Assembly (NCBI RefSeq): GCF_029360805.1
Contig: NZ_JARKNC010000008.1
Location: forward strand, 1 to 64,000
Reading direction: 5' to 3'
Origin: Daejeonella sp. JGW-45
Lineage (GTDB): Bacteria; Bacteroidota; Bacteroidia; Sphingobacteriales; Sphingobacteriaceae
DNA length: 64,000 nucleotides
Under the pieces are notes generated by a model. It had not been told where the DNA came from. It ran no database searches and saw nothing but the letters and a program-made list of their open reading frames with translations. The position numbers were made by a program, and so were the translations under genes. Below, piece after piece: positions 4,375-37,923 of this stretch. Positions within the stretch are counted from its first letter, which is position 1. Every line of letters begins with the position of its first letter.

Positions 4375-5892
4375 TTAGGGTAAGAGGTTATTTAAGGTAT
4401 AGCAGATCAGCCTATTGTCGAGCGCCTGGCCTTTAGCAGTTGTAATATCTCCCAGCTTCAGCTCATACACATAACCTGCTTTCAGGTCGTTTAATTCCAG
4501 GGATACCTTCAGGCCGTCGGCCGATACCCTGACACTTTTAATCGGTACCTGCTGCACGTCCTGCTGGTCGGTTTTATCCGCGCCGGCATTCTTAGCTTTT
4601 CGCTGGTATTTATAATAGTAATGCCTGAAATTATAGTTAGCGGCATTAAGCGCCTGCGTCCTGTTTACAGGCTGGGTAAAAGTCAGGTCAAAGCCCTTTT
4701 TGGTCAGGTTCATCATTTGCACATCGGCCGGCTTATTACCGTTAAAGACAATCCGTTGTACACCCTGGTCGCCCGCCCATCCAAAAGCGATCTGCCCTAC
4801 CCACAAGCTGCCATCGGGAGCAAATGCGAGACGGTTATTGCCTTTTCGCAATCCCCGGCCGTCAATGAACGGAATACAGGCACCCTGAAGTTCTCCGGCG
4901 ACTGTCTCGAGCATCACCCTGACTATGCGGTCGCGGTTCATCTCACCAACGAACAACTGTCCTGCAAAAGGGCCGAACTTACCTTCTGTTATATCGCACA
5001 GAGGCTGGGCCGGTGAGTTAGCCATTACCCCCTGCGGGAACAGGACAGCGGCTTTTGTGCGTATCTTGTCGAGTTCAGGAACCGGACTGATGAAGGGGTT
5101 CTTCCCCTCCCACTCCTTTGTCCACACCAGGCTTGCCGGGTGGCCATAAAACTTGCCTTCCTTCACATGGTACAGGGTGCTCGTCTCCACCCAATCGCTT
5201 TGATTATCAGTGACAAACAGGTTACCCTTTAAGTCAAAGCCGATCCCGTTAGGCGATCTCATCCCCGAAGCATAAGGCTGAAGCTTATTACTTCCCGCCG
5301 GAAGTTTCATAATCCAGCCGCGATAAGGCACCACGGAATACATCTCATACACGCCTTGCTGGGTCATGTCCCTTCCGGACGGCCTCAGTTCACCGCGAAC
5401 CTCAGGCCGTACACTACCACCCTGTGAGGCTGTGTTCAATGCGATATAAAGGTTGCCCTCTGCATCCTGTGCAGGGCCGTAATTAAACTCATGGTAATTC
5501 CCTGAGATACCAAAATCATCAGTCAGGGTTTCGTAAACATCGGCCAGGCCATCTCCATCGGTATCTCTTATGCGGGTCAGCTCGGGCCTTTGCATCACAA
5601 TAAATTCAGATTTATTTACCACATGGATGCCAAGCGGTTCGTGCAAGCCGGTTGCAAATACTTTCCATTCCTTTTTTTCGGGGGTATAAAGCATCACCTC
5701 ACCGCGGATGAAACATGCCGCAAGGCGGCCATCGGGTAAAAACGCCAGGCCGCCGGTCTCGCTCATCAGGCCGGGAGGCATATCAATACTTTGAACCGTA
5801 TATGCGGATCCCGTTGAAACAACCTGGGCATTTGTAGTCGTTCCGTATATCAGCAGGAGTGAAATAAGACAATATTGCAAAATGGTCTTCAT
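4375..5892 (-). CDS. Secreted soluble sugar-dehydrogenase-like propeller
   Basis: A 505-residue exported protein with a signal peptide ending near TTNAQ (residue 23). Residues ~30-400 form a six-bladed propeller of the glucose/sorbosone dehydrogenase and membrane-bound-dehydrogenase type: GGLAFLPDGRLAAC, a calcium-loop-like DTDGDGLADVYE (~110), YGPAQDAEGNLYIAL, GMRSPNGIGFDLKGNLFVTD. The last ~100 residues look like an Ig-type domain ending in strands around LNDLKAGYVYELKLG. Relatives oxidise sugars with PQQ, but PQQ binding cannot be confirmed from sequence. Two bases separate it from the upstream cupredoxin gene, so the two are probably co-translated and may be donor and acceptor of electrons. 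Confidence 0.72.
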   Translation of the reverse strand: MKTILQYCLISLLLIYGTTTNAQVVSTGSAYTVQSIDMPPGLMSETGGLAFLPDGRLAACFIRGEVMLYTPEKKEWKVFATGLHEPLGIHVVNKSEFIVMQRPELTRIRDTDGDGLADVYETLTDDFGISGNYHEFNYGPAQDAEGNLYIALNTASQGGSVRPEVRGELRPSGRDMTQQGVYEMYSVVPYRGWIMKLPAGSNKLQPYASGMRSPNGIGFDLKGNLFVTDNQSDWVETSTLYHVKEGKFYGHPASLVWTKEWEGKNPFISPVPELDKIRTKAAVLFPQGVMANSPAQPLCDITEGKFGPFAGQLFVGEMNRDRIVRVMLETVAGELQGACIPFIDGRGLRKGNNRLAFAPDGSLWVGQIAFGWAGDQGVQRIVFNGNKPADVQMMNLTKKGFDLTFTQPVNRTQALNAANYNFRHYYYKYQRKAKNAGADKTDQQDVQQVPIKSVRVSADGLKVSLELNDLKAGYVYELKLGDITTAKGQALDNRLICYTLNNLLP

Positions 5893-5894
5893 TA

Positions 5895-7040
5895 CTATTT
5901 CTTTCTTCGTGTGTTAAAAACAAGGGAATAATTAGTCATCGTTACGCTAAACTCGCGTGCCTGAGCGGGTGTGAGCTTTAACTTCCCATCAATCCATTCG
6001 CCTGCAGACGATTCGTAAGTAGCAGTACCGTTCACCGCGGCAGAGATGAACCAAACAGTACCTTTCGCATCCGGCACCCTGAATTTTCTTACCAGCCCGT
6101 TGCCATCTTCTTTAGGAAGGATCAGCTCGTATACGTGTTGACCATTAATTATATAATGAAATTCCGGGAACCTGTTTATTAGTTTGTATCCCTTAAATTC
6201 GGGAACGGGGGGCGTGTCGGGGCTGCCAATAGCAAGCGAATGCGCTGCGTTTTCTCTAAAAAACACAGGCCCGAGGATTTTGGCATTTGCATCTATGTGC
6301 CCTTTCCAGATGGCAGTATTATCCAGAAACCCGCCGCTCCAGGCGTAGCGTAACTGGCATGAACCTGCATCCCAGCAGTAGGACAGATTTTTTGGAAGAT
6401 TGACAGCGATAGAGGCCGGACCGGAATCATCCATAAAGATCCGGTACATATATGGCGCAACATTTTCGTACGGATGGATAGCATTATGGCCTTTTGTATG
6501 ATCTGTGGCTGGATTCGCGGCAGCGGACTTCTCCTCCCTTCGCGATGGCGGCAAGTTCTGGTCCGTTTTCTGATCGGGCATACTACTGTTAGCCGAAACA
6601 TACATTACCCCGTACATGATAAAGCCGTGGCCGGGAAACGTGCACACGTAAGGATACGCACCGGGTTCAGTTGGCGAAGTAAACTCCAAAGTTGCAGACT
6701 GGTTCGTAGAAACAACAGGTATAGACCATAGCACCTTGGATGATTTAGGGACATAGTTCATCGCGGGTCCCTTTTCCTCCAGGGCAAGAGCTTCGTTGAC
6801 CACATCCAGGCGCGCTCCCGGCTTCGTAATAAGAAAATTGTGACTCATATCGTCCGCATTGTTAAAGACGAGCTTCACTTTTGTTGCGGGTTTAACACTG
6901 AATCGAACCAGGTCAAACTGCATTCCCGCGATGGCGCTGATGGTTATATTTACAGGTACAGTGCTTGCTCCCTGCGCATAAGCCCCCTTGGTAAAGAGGC
7001 CTGTTATTAGTAATAAAACCGTTAAAATAAGTTTCTGCAT
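5895..7040 (-). CDS. Secreted azurin-type cupredoxin with C-terminal domain
   Basis: The start at 7040 (ATG) is preferred over an in-frame TTG at 7046. A signal peptide ends at GAYAQ. Residues ~30-150 are a type-1 copper domain: MSHNFLI supplies H67, and YVCTFPGHGFIMYG gives C133, H138 and M142 with the azurin spacing Cys+5 = His and Cys+9 = Met. This predicts a periplasmic one-electron carrier. Residues ~185-380 form a second beta-rich domain (CWDAGSCQLRYAWSGGF, FPEFHYIINGQHVYEL) of unknown function that I cannot name. It is the first gene of the operon running to 595, with an operator-like palindrome 53 bases upstream of the start. Confidence 0.82.
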   Translation of the reverse strand: MQKLILTVLLLITGLFTKGAYAQGASTVPVNITISAIAGMQFDLVRFSVKPATKVKLVFNNADDMSHNFLITKPGARLDVVNEALALEEKGPAMNYVPKSSKVLWSIPVVSTNQSATLEFTSPTEPGAYPYVCTFPGHGFIMYGVMYVSANSSMPDQKTDQNLPPSRREEKSAAANPATDHTKGHNAIHPYENVAPYMYRIFMDDSGPASIAVNLPKNLSYCWDAGSCQLRYAWSGGFLDNTAIWKGHIDANAKILGPVFFRENAAHSLAIGSPDTPPVPEFKGYKLINRFPEFHYIINGQHVYELILPKEDGNGLVRKFRVPDAKGTVWFISAAVNGTATYESSAGEWIDGKLKLTPAQAREFSVTMTNYSLVFNTRRKK

Positions 7041-7092
7041 TGACAATTATAGATTACTGTTAAGTTTGCTCATCCAAGTTAATAATAAAATA

Positions 7093-29696: not shown

Positions 29697-31085
29697 TTAC
29701 TTCCTCATTGAAGTTTTAATAGCACCGGCATTTTTGTTTATTTTTTCAATAGCGTAAACTATTGCATCCATGTCATCTTTACTTCCCAAAAGGAGGTTCT
29801 GTGTGAACCAAACGGCTTCAGAGCATAACTGATCATTTTTAGGGCACTGATTACGTTCCATGTATTTTGCGTAATCAAGCATTTCCTTCGGGTAGATTTT
29901 TTTAAAATTCTTGGATTCGAAAGCGCTTTTAAGAAACTCTTGTGTATTCAAAGGCGCATAGCCACTAGAGCAAGGAACACCCTCAGCACGCAATGCGGTT
30001 AGGAAGTCGGCCCTTGACAATCCCTGGAACCCCTCTGACTTGTACCTGAATGGGAAAAGGTGGAACGCCGCCCGGGTAACATTGTCATACAATCTATAAG
30101 GAATGATACCGGGAATCTTCTCGATTTTTGATTTCAGATATGCAGCATTTTCATTTCTCGTCACGGTTTGAGCTTCCAATCTCTTTAACTGCGCCAAACC
30201 GATAGCTGCCTGATATTCGGTAATACGGACTTTAGTACCGAGCCTGATACTTCCTGTAGCTATCGAGCCTACTGCACTTCCATACGGCAATCCTAAATTC
30301 TGGTAAGACACACAACGATCCATAAATACATCATCGTTACTAACAATTGCCCCGCCTTCTCCAATGGCGATATTTTTTGAGTTTTGGAAACTGAAGCAAC
30401 CTGCGTGACCGATAGTACCTACCTGTTGCTTATTAATTTCTGCTAATGGCGCCTGGCAAGCATCCTCAACTACAACAAGGTTATGTTTTTTGGCAATAGC
30501 CATAATACTTACCATATCAGCTGGCAGTCCCAGGATGTGAACCGGCAGAATCGCCTTTGTGCGGGGCGTAATCTTGGCTTCAATTTTTGAAGGGTCAATC
30601 TGAAATGTTTCCGGATCTACGTCGACAAACACAGGCATGGCCCCATTTGCCAGAATAGCCTGAACTGTGGATATAAATGTATATGGTGGAACTAAAACCT
30701 CATCGCCTCCTTTGATATCAAACTGGTTAAGTGCCACTATCAGTGCATTAGTACCATTGGATACCAACAGGGAGCGCTTTACTCCGATTGTTTTCGACCA
30801 TGCGGCCTCAAACTCGTCAGCAACCTTATTGCGTGACCAAATTCCGCTCCTTAACGTTTCCAACACGCGTGGTTCGTCTGTTTCGGGGATCCAAATTGGC
30901 CATTTTACCCATTTAACAGGATCCCATGCTGAATGACCACCTAGTATGGCTGGCATAGCGGCTTTATCAACCATGGCTCCAGCCAGTGAGGATGTTGCAC
31001 CCACTCCTATAAGGGTTGCCATTCCTGCTATTGAACTTTGCTTAATAAACTTACGCCTTGACGCATCAGTCTTCCGATTTTTCAT
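29697..31085 (-). CDS. DegT/DnrJ/EryC1/StrS-type aminotransferase with Tat leader
   Basis: A 462-residue PLP enzyme of the sugar-aminotransferase (AHBA synthase-like) family: WSRNKVADEFEAAWSKTIG, LLVSNGTNALIVAL, EVLVPPYTFISTVQAIL, VVEDACQAP, and the PLP lysine in FSFQNSKNIAIGEGG (~238). The surprising part is the N-terminus, DASRRKFIKQSSIAGMATLIGVGA, a convincing twin-arginine leader. A folded, cofactor-loaded enzyme exported by Tat would act in the periplasm. Cytosolic members aminate keto-sugars, so an exported version could handle 3-keto-sugars made in the same compartment, or use the fold for something else. It heads a two-gene operon with an operator 97 bases upstream. Confidence 0.85.
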   Translation of the reverse strand: MKNRKTDASRRKFIKQSSIAGMATLIGVGATSSLAGAMVDKAAMPAILGGHSAWDPVKWVKWPIWIPETDEPRVLETLRSGIWSRNKVADEFEAAWSKTIGVKRSLLVSNGTNALIVALNQFDIKGGDEVLVPPYTFISTVQAILANGAMPVFVDVDPETFQIDPSKIEAKITPRTKAILPVHILGLPADMVSIMAIAKKHNLVVVEDACQAPLAEINKQQVGTIGHAGCFSFQNSKNIAIGEGGAIVSNDDVFMDRCVSYQNLGLPYGSAVGSIATGSIRLGTKVRITEYQAAIGLAQLKRLEAQTVTRNENAAYLKSKIEKIPGIIPYRLYDNVTRAAFHLFPFRYKSEGFQGLSRADFLTALRAEGVPCSSGYAPLNTQEFLKSAFESKNFKKIYPKEMLDYAKYMERNQCPKNDQLCSEAVWFTQNLLLGSKDDMDAIVYAIEKINKNAGAIKTSMRK

Positions 31086-31181
31086 TTCAGTATAGTTAAA
31101 GGGTGCTTACAAACACTTTATTTATTTTTTCTATCAACTTAGCTTTATTGAACGTAACCAGACATCTTCCTCAGATATTTA

Positions 31182-31195
31182 CGTTTACGTACCCG
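31182..31195. promoter_or_regulatory. LacI-type operator candidate, copy 5
   Basis: CGTTTACGTACCCG followed by AAAA, in the 199-base gap upstream of the aminotransferase operon. It matches the regional consensus at every position. Confidence 0.65.
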
Positions 31196-31284
31196 AAAAT
31201 AACAATTTTTTTCTCTTAAACAATAAATCCACATAATAAAAGAGATAATAAATCGGCCGGCAGTCCGGGTTTCGCTTATATAGC

Positions 31285-32490
31285 TTATTCCCTGACGGTG
31301 GCGATCATATCTATCGAAACCCCGCTATCCTGAATCCCGACACCTTTTACCTTGGCTTTAGACGCTGCTGGCGGACGTTTAGGATCGTAATATCTTGGTC
31401 TCAAATCAGATAGACTTTTACTATATGGATCAGATCCAATATAATACGTAGCTTTTAACAAATTATTGAAATCAGATCCACTGGCCGTGAGCACATTATT
31501 TAATGAACTGAATACCTCTAAAAGTTCCGCATCCGTACTTTCAGATCTCTTTCCATGAATGCTCGATATATAGATCTTTTTGCCCTGATTCAACCGTGTT
31601 ACCTTACTGTAAACAGGCGAGGCAGTCATTCCCGGAGGGGTGAGAAATTCAATCCTGTCTGTCGCGGCGTTCTGCGTTTTAGCAGGTGACGCAGCGATAA
31701 GCTCGATCTCTATCACGGGATCACTGCTGATCCAATCTACAAAAACAAGCGGCGGGACTTTTTCCGTCTTAAAGAAGTCAGAAAACTCTTTTTTAACCAT
31801 GTCGATCGATGACATCGGACTTAGAAATGACTTTACCTGAACAACATCCTTTAGAGTGAGACCTAAGGAAATAAGTGTTTCTCTCAATTGTTCCAGAGTA
31901 CCTTTTGTTGCCTCTGCCAGGTTACCCTTGGCCGCCTGGCCTGACACGTAAACAACAGGTCCTTTAGGTAAAATAGCTACATCCGCAAAGCCTTTATTCT
32001 TTTCCACGAAACTGACTTTTTCTGAATTCCGTTCTGACACTGCCACGGCATCAATGGAAAGCAGAGCATCCGGGTGACTTAAATCTCCGGCCACGTAAGT
32101 GACTGATGGCTTCATACCCTTTGCAAATCTGCCATTTATCAAACTCCCAACCTCATTCATCATTCCCGGATCCTTAAGAAAGACATTTAACTTTATGATC
32201 TTTTCAGTGCCGGAACCAGCTGCCTTCAAACTCTGGGCTAAAGCTGCGAATATTTGCTTAAACTGGGTATTCAAGTTATCCTTGCCTATTATATTCCCTT
32301 TCTCATCTGTCGATAAAAATAGTCTGGTGTGAGCCAGCGGAACCTCGTCAACGATTACCGCATCAGAACTACCTGCAAGGTCATCCGGCCCGATATACCT
32401 GATCTCCGTTTTTCCAGCCTGCTGGCGGATTTGTGCAAAGCCACAATCGGCACATAGCAAGAAACATATTATGACTGTCAGGAATCTCAT
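31285..32490 (-). CDS. Secreted three-module RidA (YjgF/UK114) protein
   Basis: A 401-residue exported protein with a signal peptide (FLTVIICFLLCADCGFAQ). I see three consecutive RidA-like modules: ~35-140 (FKQIFAALAQSLKAAGSG, IIKLNVFLKD), ~145-265 (VVYVSGQAAKGNLAEATKG, LTLKDVVQVKSFL) and ~280-400 (IYISSIHGKRSESTD, LLKATYYIGSDPY). RidA proteins act as homotrimers that hydrolyse enamines and imines; three modules in one chain could form a pseudotrimer. None of the modules shows the arginine of the VARLP-type motif that holds the substrate carboxylate (SHPDALLSID, ISSDPVIEIE, VKGVGIQDSG), so classical deaminase activity is doubtful. It follows the HiPIP gene by 12 bases. Confidence 0.78.
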   Translation of the reverse strand: MRFLTVIICFLLCADCGFAQIRQQAGKTEIRYIGPDDLAGSSDAVIVDEVPLAHTRLFLSTDEKGNIIGKDNLNTQFKQIFAALAQSLKAAGSGTEKIIKLNVFLKDPGMMNEVGSLINGRFAKGMKPSVTYVAGDLSHPDALLSIDAVAVSERNSEKVSFVEKNKGFADVAILPKGPVVYVSGQAAKGNLAEATKGTLEQLRETLISLGLTLKDVVQVKSFLSPMSSIDMVKKEFSDFFKTEKVPPLVFVDWISSDPVIEIELIAASPAKTQNAATDRIEFLTPPGMTASPVYSKVTRLNQGKKIYISSIHGKRSESTDAELLEVFSSLNNVLTASGSDFNNLLKATYYIGSDPYSKSLSDLRPRYYDPKRPPAASKAKVKGVGIQDSGVSIDMIATVRE

Positions 32491-32502
32491 TTAAGGTAAA
32501 TT

Positions 32503-32943
32503 TTAATTTGTGATAGGAGCCCAATATGCGCAGTAACCCTCTTTCCGAACAGGACCTTTAAATAGCATACATCCGCCGCATGGCTTATCTTTAGCTGGCG
32601 GTATATAGAGTGTGCAATTACTGCAGTGACTATCCGGGATCGGCGTTTTATTAACGTAAGCAAGCTTCTTACGTTTCTCGAGTTCTTCAGCGCTGACGCC
32701 GGTCATATCATCGCAGGGATTTTTTTCCTGAACAGCCTGACCCTTCGGATCCGTATCAGATTCCTTTTTGATGGAATCCTGACGAACCTGGTTGTTTTCT
32801 CCAGAACCGGGCTGAGGAGTGCCTGCTGCAACGGATTTTACTGATGTACAACTCAATAAGATCCCGCCACCTAATAGCAATGACCCTGTGTAAAAATATT
32901 TTCCGATGAACTCACGTCTGGAATACTGCTTCTTCTCTTTCAT
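32503..32943 (-). CDS. High-potential iron-sulfur protein (HiPIP), Tat lipoprotein
   Basis: A 146-residue protein. SRREFIGKYFYTGSLLLGGG plus a lipobox (LLSC, Cys32) mark a Tat-exported lipoprotein, as expected for a protein that folds with its cluster in the cytoplasm. A low-complexity linker (~40-75) precedes the C-terminal HiPIP pattern: C107-x2-C110, C125 (CMLFKG) and C138 in GYCAYWAP, which bind a 4Fe-4S cluster. HiPIPs shuttle single electrons in the periplasm. It lies between the PVC-type dehydrogenase-like gene (12 bases) and the RidA gene (12 bases), so electron transfer from the dehydrogenase-like protein is an attractive inference. Confidence 0.85.
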   Translation of the reverse strand: MKEKKQYSRREFIGKYFYTGSLLLGGGILLSCTSVKSVAAGTPQPGSGENNQVRQDSIKKESDTDPKGQAVQEKNPCDDMTGVSAEELEKRKKLAYVNKTPIPDSHCSNCTLYIPPAKDKPCGGCMLFKGPVRKEGYCAYWAPITN

Positions 32944-32955
32944 TGCTTTGCTTTC

Positions 32956-35067
32956 TTAGTATATACTTTTCAATACCACAATTCCGGCTTTTGCTTCTTG
33001 TTCTGTATCTGCGTTTACTTTACCTAAAGCCTCTTTCAGTTTCGAATCAGATGCTTCATTCTTACTCAAACCCATCTTTAAACCCTTAACAAGAACAGTT
33101 TGTGATTTAGCCAAAGCCGGCTGGGAAATTATATCTAAATACGCATTCACTTGCTCTTTATTGTTCCTCGCGCCGACAATTGCCGACAGGTCTTGAAGAA
33201 ACAGGTTTTTCCATGCTCCCTCCTTTTGCGTAAACGAGCTGCGCTGGCCCAATACCTTTAACAATTCGGCAGATGAACCAGCATTCGAGCTTAGAACAGC
33301 ATTTCTGAACCATACATCTTCACCATATTTTTCAATGACATTTGCCAGCGCTGTAATAACTTCCTTGTTGTTGAAGTTTCCGACACTAAGGGTTGCCTGC
33401 AGTGCAACTCTCTTATCGGCATCATTGGTTTTCTGAATGATCAAAGGCTGGGTCTCAGAAAAGCTTTCCGCAAGCATCAAAGCATTTTCCCTCACCCCCG
33501 GAGCGCTATCAACCAAGCCTTTTTTAACTACATCAACGCTCAGGGCATTCAGTCCTTCCAGAACATACAATGCATGAAGCCGCGCCCGCGCGTCTTTGCT
33601 GGTATTGAAAAAAGCTTTTACCACCGGCACCACAGACTTATCCTGACGCTCCAGCAGCAGGCGTTGCGCCTGTGAACGCCACCAGCCGTTATTTCTTCCC
33701 AGGACTTCGACCAGTTTCGCACTCGGCATATCTTTCAGATTTACCGCCGTATTCTTGTAGGCGGCGCCCTGAGGAATGATCCTGTAGATCCTTCCCTTAT
33801 CGCTACCCGCCATAAAATCCATATCAGCTTTAAGGTCATCAGGAATAGACACAGGTGTTTCTATGTGCTGCCTGTAATAGTCAAGAACATACAGGTAACC
33901 GTCCGGCCCTACCGATGATATTACCGGGCGGAACCATGGATCTGTTGAATAGATAAACTCTCTGTTTTTTTCTTTATCCGCCCTCTTTGCAATGTAAACC
34001 GGGCTTTTAGGATCAGGAGCTATTATATCGCGATGAACGAGGTTACCCGAAACGTCGGTAGTAAAAATATTGCCGTAAAATTCTTTTGGTAAAGCATCCC
34101 CGTTATAGAGCGTACCTCCTGAAGCCCCCGTAAACCGGTCTTCCGCATACTCTATGCGGTTCATATTGTTTTCCTTGTACATCTTATTACGCTGAGCGCT
34201 GCGCTCTGCCCTCCAGTAAGGAGGCGCTGTTTCCTGGAACATTATTTCCTCATGATCGGTAACGGTCACATTGAATTTAGACGTCGGCAGGAACGGATGC
34301 CTGTGCGTATACCTCCAGGGAATAACGGCCTGCTGCAAATGAATTGAGTTTTCAGTAAAGAAGCGATGGCCCCAATCATTTATTGTCTGCCCAAACTGAC
34401 CAGGCCCTGTTTCCAGCTCAAATACGTTCCGGTCAAGCCGGAAGCGAAAGTCAGCACCACGCACTTCAACGGGAGGATCATTCGGAGTCTTGCTGAACGT
34501 TACCTTCCCTGCCTGCCCACGATTATTAGCATAGATCCAATTATCAATACCAAACCTCAGGCTTGTAACCTGTGCTTCAGAGTTGTTCTGAAAGAAGCCT
34601 GAAAATAATATCTCCGATGTATCGGACTTTCCGTCGCCGTTCGTGTCTTTCAGGTATAAAATATTAGGAGCTGCTGTAACAATCAATCCGCCCTTCCATG
34701 GTAGAATACTGGTTGCTTCTGTGACATTCTCAGCAAATATCGATGCTTTATCAATGCGGCCGTCACCGTTTGTATCTGATAACATTTTAATGCGACCATG
34801 TCCCTTGCCCGGCTCCACTTCATAAGGATAATCAGGCATTTCCACTACATACACATTCCCTTGTTCGTCGAATTCAAGTGCAACGGGATCCATTACAAAT
34901 GGTTCCGCAGCATAAATCTGAGCCGAAAAGCCGGGAGCCACGTTCAGCTTTTTCAACGACTCCTCAGGGCTCAACGGCCCGGGATAACGCTGAGCAACCC
35001 CATCTGCTGCCATGAGGGCCAGGGGTAATAGGAAAAGGGTAAACTTAATCTTTGAATTGGTCTTCAT
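32956..35067 (-). CDS. PVC-type dehydrogenase-like propeller with HEAT repeats, no heme motif
   Basis: A 703-residue exported protein (signal peptide to GVAQ). Residues ~30-430 are the membrane-bound-dehydrogenase propeller known from planctomycetal heme proteins: GFSAQIYAAEPFVMDPVALEFDEQ, VEMPDYPYE, calcium loops DTNGDGRID and DTNGDGKSD, SVGPDGYLYVLDYYRQHI. Residues ~450-690 are HEAT-like helices (SAPGVRENALMLAE, DADKRVALQATLSVG). The C-terminal CxxCH cytochrome domain that many relatives carry is absent, and the protein ends at VLKSIY. Electrons, if any, must leave by another route, and the HiPIP encoded next door is a candidate. It is the first gene of a three-gene operon with an operator 63 bases upstream. 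Confidence 0.8.
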   Translation of the reverse strand: MKTNSKIKFTLFLLPLALMAADGVAQRYPGPLSPEESLKKLNVAPGFSAQIYAAEPFVMDPVALEFDEQGNVYVVEMPDYPYEVEPGKGHGRIKMLSDTNGDGRIDKASIFAENVTEATSILPWKGGLIVTAAPNILYLKDTNGDGKSDTSEILFSGFFQNNSEAQVTSLRFGIDNWIYANNRGQAGKVTFSKTPNDPPVEVRGADFRFRLDRNVFELETGPGQFGQTINDWGHRFFTENSIHLQQAVIPWRYTHRHPFLPTSKFNVTVTDHEEIMFQETAPPYWRAERSAQRNKMYKENNMNRIEYAEDRFTGASGGTLYNGDALPKEFYGNIFTTDVSGNLVHRDIIAPDPKSPVYIAKRADKEKNREFIYSTDPWFRPVISSVGPDGYLYVLDYYRQHIETPVSIPDDLKADMDFMAGSDKGRIYRIIPQGAAYKNTAVNLKDMPSAKLVEVLGRNNGWWRSQAQRLLLERQDKSVVPVVKAFFNTSKDARARLHALYVLEGLNALSVDVVKKGLVDSAPGVRENALMLAESFSETQPLIIQKTNDADKRVALQATLSVGNFNNKEVITALANVIEKYGEDVWFRNAVLSSNAGSSAELLKVLGQRSSFTQKEGAWKNLFLQDLSAIVGARNNKEQVNAYLDIISQPALAKSQTVLVKGLKMGLSKNEASDSKLKEALGKVNADTEQEAKAGIVVLKSIY

Positions 35068-35129
35068 TCCTGTTATTTATGATTTTTATTCTTGTTTATA
35101 TCTCTATAGCCTTATCTGAGATGATTATG

Positions 35130-35143
35130 CGGTAACGTACCCG
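35130..35143. promoter_or_regulatory. LacI-type operator candidate, copy 6
   Basis: CGGTAACGTACCCG followed by AAAG, 63 bases upstream of the PVC-type operon, within the 188-base gap after the heparinase-like gene. Confidence 0.6.
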
Positions 35144-35255
35144 AAAGTAGTTAGTATATTTTGAAATTTCAAATCTATTTTATCCTCAAGATAAAAAACA
35201 TTAATAGAGCCGCTGTACTTAATTCATAATAATATTGTGACCTAAAAATCCGTTG

Positions 35256-37757: not shown

Positions 37758-37900
37758 ATTATCAAGTATTTACAAACGAAAACATAAAAGGAATACTATA
37801 CAAGCAAACACCCTTCAGCCCTCCGTACTAGCCATTTGATCGCTTTCATTTTACCCCGAAATAAAATATAAAGACATATATACTTAAAATATTTTATATT

Positions 37901-37918
37901 TATGGGTACGTACCCATA
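37901..37918. promoter_or_regulatory. LacI-type operator candidate, copy 7 (perfect palindrome)
   Basis: TATGGGTACGTACCCATA is an exact 18-base palindrome, and its core TGGGTACGTACCCA fits the regional motif. It ends 5 bases before the ATG at 37924, so a bound repressor would cover the initiation region. It may also serve the divergent heparinase-like gene. Confidence 0.75.
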
Positions 37919-37923
37919 AGCTT

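Follow-up and report, generated by a model that had tools for sequence, protein, structure and literature searches.

HiPIPs are known mainly as carriers in photosynthetic and respiratory chains, and the locus described here raises the question of what such an iron-sulfur carrier does in an operon with a dehydrogenase-like protein and a protein built of three RidA modules. The operon lies in a stretch of 64,000 nucleotides of Daejeonella sp. JGW-45 (the window), in a genome of 4.1 Mb whose nearest match is D. lutea and whose named relatives are Daejeonella species. It runs on the minus strand from 35067 to 31285 and comprises a DUF7133/TIGR02604 dehydrogenase-like gene (32956–35067), a HiPIP precursor gene (32503–32943) and a triple RidA-fold gene (31285–32490). 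The two gaps between these open reading frames measure 12 bases each, so that the three closely packed exported proteins described in an earlier, sequence-only reading are confirmed. The surroundings form a SusC/SusD-type polysaccharide locus with heparinase-II/III-like enzymes, the SusC/SusD frames having been recognised by eye.

The first protein, of 703 aa, consists of a signal peptide, a six-bladed propeller at residues 33–433 (33769–34971, minus strand) and HEAT repeats at about residues 450–703. It matches DUF7133 (E 1e-117) and TIGR02604 (E 5e-77), both above cut-offs; the TIGR02604 N-terminal domain scores 259.8 bits against a curated 122.2 and is matched by 32/32 members of the heme-less clade. 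No CxxCH occurs in this protein (P0003) or in its close relatives, and a C-terminal heme motif is found in none of 47 enzymes paired with a HiPIP, the single CxxCH match among them sitting in a signal peptide. The C-terminal heme domain, already reported missing from the window protein, is thus missing from all its paired relatives as well. The next relatives share at most 39% identity, are about 1000 aa long as against about 700 aa in the heme-less proteins, and carry CxxCH at residues 848–907 in every one checked, including all seven family relatives whose DNA was read, in which the motif falls at residues 848–901. The heme-less enzymes group together behind a branch supported at 100/98, for which a single origin, and not a series of independent events, would be the simplest reading.

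The second protein, a precursor of 146 aa, has a Tat-type RR signal, a lipobox (LLSC in the window genome) and an iron-sulfur domain (32518–32637, minus strand), with six conserved cysteines in all. The HIPIP domain PF01355 reaches 26.4 bits against a cut-off of 22, and the cluster ligands C107, C110, C125 and C138, which had been recognised as correctly placed from the sequence, are all in position and invariant across the aligned HiPIPs. Two further cysteines, C77 (just outside 32518–32637) and C122, are common with the Rhodothermus marinus HiPIP 3h31 and likely form an extra disulfide pair. All six are kept in 46/47 paired HiPIPs and the Tat-type RR motif in 47/47, while lipoboxes come and go on enzyme and HiPIP alike across the paired loci.

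Conservation of the two genes as a pair was followed from both sides. The window's family was sampled with 251 genomes, of which 22 have HiPIP relatives, at 23 places; a search for the enzyme that was blind to the HiPIP returned 23 close relatives in the 251 family genomes (at least 49% identity, frames of about 700 aa), and every one of these directly adjoins one of those same 23 HiPIP genes. A phylum-wide sample of 395 genomes holds four short enzymes, all four beside a HiPIP, and the long ones carry CxxCH. When 84,980 species genomes were scanned, 56 HiPIP loci were recovered, 47 of them with a heme-less enzyme next door; the enzyme lies directly upstream on the same strand in 46 of the 56 and converges with the HiPIP gene in one, and the two genes are separated by –8 to 89 bp except at a single locus (301 bp). 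Pair loci span several families, including Cyclobacterium, Larkinella, Runella, Lunatimonas, Sphingobacterium, Parapedobacter and a Saprospiraceae bacterium, and since the genes beyond the pair change between groups, common descent of one long block does not by itself explain the linkage. In the openly accessible journal literature we found no paper on the enzyme–HiPIP pair and none on a HiPIP in Pedobacter. The earlier reading knew of no described system of this exact form; tandem 3x-RidA proteins are already on record (PMC4433059).

That a HiPIP is always tied to the enzyme was rejected on the phylum sample, in which 32/36 HiPIP genomes are without a heme-less enzyme. The majority of HiPIP genes in the phylum stand alone, so HiPIP has other work too, and the lone proteins are presumably general respiratory carriers. 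Lone HiPIP genes without a heme-less enzyme nearby are those of loci L147, L149, L151–L156 and L221–L246; the L243 genome has only a long, CxxCH-bearing relative of the enzyme. A Saprospiraceae HiPIP (L129:1857–2219, on a 3.2 kb contig) sits beside ceramidase-like genes, and no dehydrogenase is visible there.

Paralogs in the same genome suggest what the paired HiPIP replaces. Six DUF7133 proteins of the window genome bear a C-terminal cytochrome c, one bears a C-terminal cupredoxin and one has the adjacent HiPIP gene; in the cupredoxin-bearing protein (L096:2848–5970, genome contig C9), which also has an N-terminal GDSL lipase domain, the cupredoxin occupies the place of the heme domain. A weaker member of the propeller family is encoded at 4375–5892 and an exported cupredoxin gene adjoins it at 5895–7046, so that 4375–7046 appears as an enzyme–carrier pairing of like kind, with copper. 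It is mainly because the paralogs have fused heme, fused cupredoxin or adjacent cupredoxin that we read the HiPIP as an electron acceptor. The proposal that it substitutes for the missing heme domain, first made from the window alone, is backed by this assortment of acceptor domains and by the reciprocal conservation of the pair, and a takeover of the fused heme's role by the HiPIP may be regarded as well supported at the level of sequence.

The fold of the enzyme bears on what it might oxidise. Best matches to its predicted model (mean pLDDT 89.7) include the PQQ sugar dehydrogenases 3a9g, 2ism, 6i1q and 2g8s at Z 21–24 (for 3a9g, Z 23.6 over 287 residues at 3.6 Å), and a profile comparison with the GSDH proteins of the genus gives 96% probability. 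Hedgehog-interacting protein (HHIP) and lactonase-type propellers reach Z nearly as high, and therefore the fold alone shows no cofactor. By hhalign, in an alignment that is weak mid-propeller, R380 aligns with the C-terminal PQQ-contacting Arg region, and the PQQ Arg-Asn pair and catalytic His described for sGDH and AA12 (PMC6881789) were not found at their expected places; the Arg-Asn pair is absent also from the nearest heme-fused sisters. As to a lost cofactor pocket, which the earlier reading had named as grounds for refutation, the signs are divided, the fold and one PQQ-contacting arginine being kept and the remaining contacts not recovered. GSDH proteins occur in 18/20 genomes of the genus. 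PqqE was found in none of the 20, in a search that had no positive control, the control genomes also all falling below the PqqE cut-off; PQQ would then be imported, or the cofactor would be another one. A further-reaching proposal, which we put forward only tentatively, is that the heme-less propeller enzyme strictly needs its dedicated HiPIP as electron acceptor and works with a cofactor or chemistry unlike that of the known PQQ sugar dehydrogenases. One enzyme family would in that case have exchanged a fused cytochrome c, a fused cupredoxin and a separate iron-sulfur carrier during evolution.

That classical PQQ contacts were not recognised in the heme-less clade would also suit a glycoside-cleaving propeller protein, with the redox step internal or absent and the HiPIP serving a separate, co-regulated purpose. 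The single biochemical report that we found on the family concerns Lac161_ORF7, a purified, heme-bearing TIGR02604-HEAT-cytochrome c protein from a Verrucomicrobia cosmid, which is reported to hydrolyse lactose (Km 1.8 mM; PMC5342196). Even so, we think this account unlikely: the electron carriers fused to members of this one family, or encoded beside them, are of three unrelated kinds, which suggests redox work, and separate purposes would leave the 23/23 linkage without explanation.

We favour, as the probable answer, a two-gene periplasmic redox pair in which the propeller enzyme oxidises a sugar or glycoside and the adjacent HiPIP replaces the heme domain, with the RidA protein as a later add-on. 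The sugar or glycoside would most likely be one released by the surrounding polysaccharide-utilisation locus. Its electrons would pass to the adjacent Tat-exported HiPIP, in place of the fused cytochrome c of the sister enzymes, a step to which co-conservation and domain swapping both point; from the HiPIP they may enter the respiratory chain by a route that we can only presume, the window genome having two heme-copper oxidase genes. In the reverse direction, alternative complex III would oxidise quinol and reduce the HiPIP, which would then feed the propeller protein for a reduction or an oxygen-dependent reaction. Such flow has its model in R. marinus, where alternative complex III passes electrons to the HiPIP, the closest relative with a solved structure (PMC5928083, PMC8552683). 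The fold relatives and heme-fused sisters of the enzyme, however, look like electron-donating dehydrogenases, and we give reverse flow little credence.

A conserved pair of one enzyme and one HiPIP would supply a testable partner in a phylum where most HiPIPs are without an assigned one, a natural experiment in the swapping of electron acceptors within an enzyme family, and a way to approach the cofactor and substrate of a family that has hardly been studied.

An operator-like, imperfect palindrome of 20 bp, ATGCGGTAACGTACCCGAAA, lies at 35127–35146, 60 bp before the start codon of the dehydrogenase-like gene, and recurs before the dehydrogenase gene in 9/9 related loci. The single operator that had been placed before the operon is thus real, but the motif stands before other genes of the locus too: the LacI-like palindrome TTTCGGGTACGTACCCGAAA has 20-mer starts at 7090, 28047, 31179, 35127, 37900 and 48633, 5–143 bp before several locus genes, and its copies (listed without strand) precede neighbouring DegT, SusC-like, heparinase-like, amidohydrolase and cupredoxin genes. 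The copy at 37900–37919, between divergent genes, is a perfect palindrome. Since the motif is shared across the locus, an operator private to the operon was rejected, and the palindrome looks like the mark of a locus-wide regulon. A copy at 31179–31198, 94 bp before a DegT-type gene, places that gene in the same presumed regulon. It encodes an exported DegT-family (PLP) aminotransferase with an RR-type leader (29697–31085, minus strand), which we treat as context and not as core. The gene neighbours the operon in all Daejeonella loci reaching that far, and in other genera, too, DegT-type relatives are encoded close to the pair, alongside ceramidase-like, kelch-like and amidohydrolase genes.

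In the exported 401-aa product of the third gene, PF01042 is matched three times and the predicted model (mean pLDDT 80.8, pTM 0.84) shows three modules, in agreement with the architecture first described; Rid structures match it at Z about 9. A chorismatase, the best whole-model match (Z 12.4, 193 residues aligned), was not taken as a functional sign. The catalytic arginine (Arg105 of TdcF) is replaced in all three modules and kept in 12/12 other Rid proteins recovered from the window genome. Rid subfamilies that lack this residue do not seem to hydrolyse imines, and the imines on which RidA is known to act come from PLP enzymes and amine oxidases (PMC4433059), which speaks against the suggestion that products of sugar oxidation are the target. 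Besides Daejeonella, genome G239 and an Adhaeribacter MAG have the RidA gene beside the pair; HiPIP loci outside the Daejeonella type and that MAG have no Rid gene of any kind, and RidA was rejected as a conserved part of the module. Parapedobacter pyrenivorans has a triple RidA protein (L087:9681–10922) alone among genes without relation.

Of the three-gene module first proposed, the operon itself is real, but the conserved core is the enzyme and HiPIP, the RidA gene being a lineage-specific third member. The original scheme of oxidising, carrying electrons and removing reactive imines via RidA draws on the operon position of the Daejeonella gene and on the exported PLP-type aminotransferase encoded next to it behind the same operator motif, PLP enzymes being a known imine source, but it is highly improbable, since no module has the arginine whose change to alanine almost abolishes activity in known RidA proteins (PMC4433059) and since the gene is absent from most pair loci and stands alone in P. 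pyrenivorans. A tie of the RidA protein to the DegT enzyme is as likely as one to the redox pair, because the DegT gene is the next gene and has the same operator. We infer that the RidA gene is a later addition in Daejeonella and a few relatives, and that its product probably binds a ligand or has an accessory role and does not deaminate imines.

Comparison with known systems places each component. The PVC-type heme-binding CxxCH proteins (TIGR02604/DUF7133) have the same propeller and HEAT architecture, and conserved residues such as E55, D98, D102, D175, R208, Q224, N240, R380, R399 and R426 are common to the 703-aa protein and nearly all heme-fused sisters compared; the enzyme here differs in lacking the heme domain and in having a HiPIP gene adjoining instead, for which reason the widely used automatic NCBI name 'PVC-type heme-binding CxxCH protein' is wrong for the whole clade. 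With the PQQ sugar dehydrogenases GSDH/Asd, sGDH and AA12 it shares a six-bladed propeller (Z 20–23.6) and, with GSDH, profile homology; the HEAT repeats are added, and neither the Arg-Asn pair nor the catalytic His was recognised in the weak profile alignment. The AA12 pyranose dehydrogenase propeller has a fused cytochrome (PMC6881789), and here the carrier is a separate iron-sulfur protein. Like the 3x-RidA proteins (e.g. EF_0115, PMC4433059), the third protein has three Rid modules per chain, presumably forming a covalent trimer, but it is exported and without the catalytic arginine in all three. The HiPIP itself aligns with that of R. marinus (PDB 3h31, the nearest solved structure) over the six cysteines and most of the core (E 2.5e-25); the R. 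marinus protein is a respiratory carrier (PMC5928083), whereas the HiPIP gene described here is tied to one enzyme.
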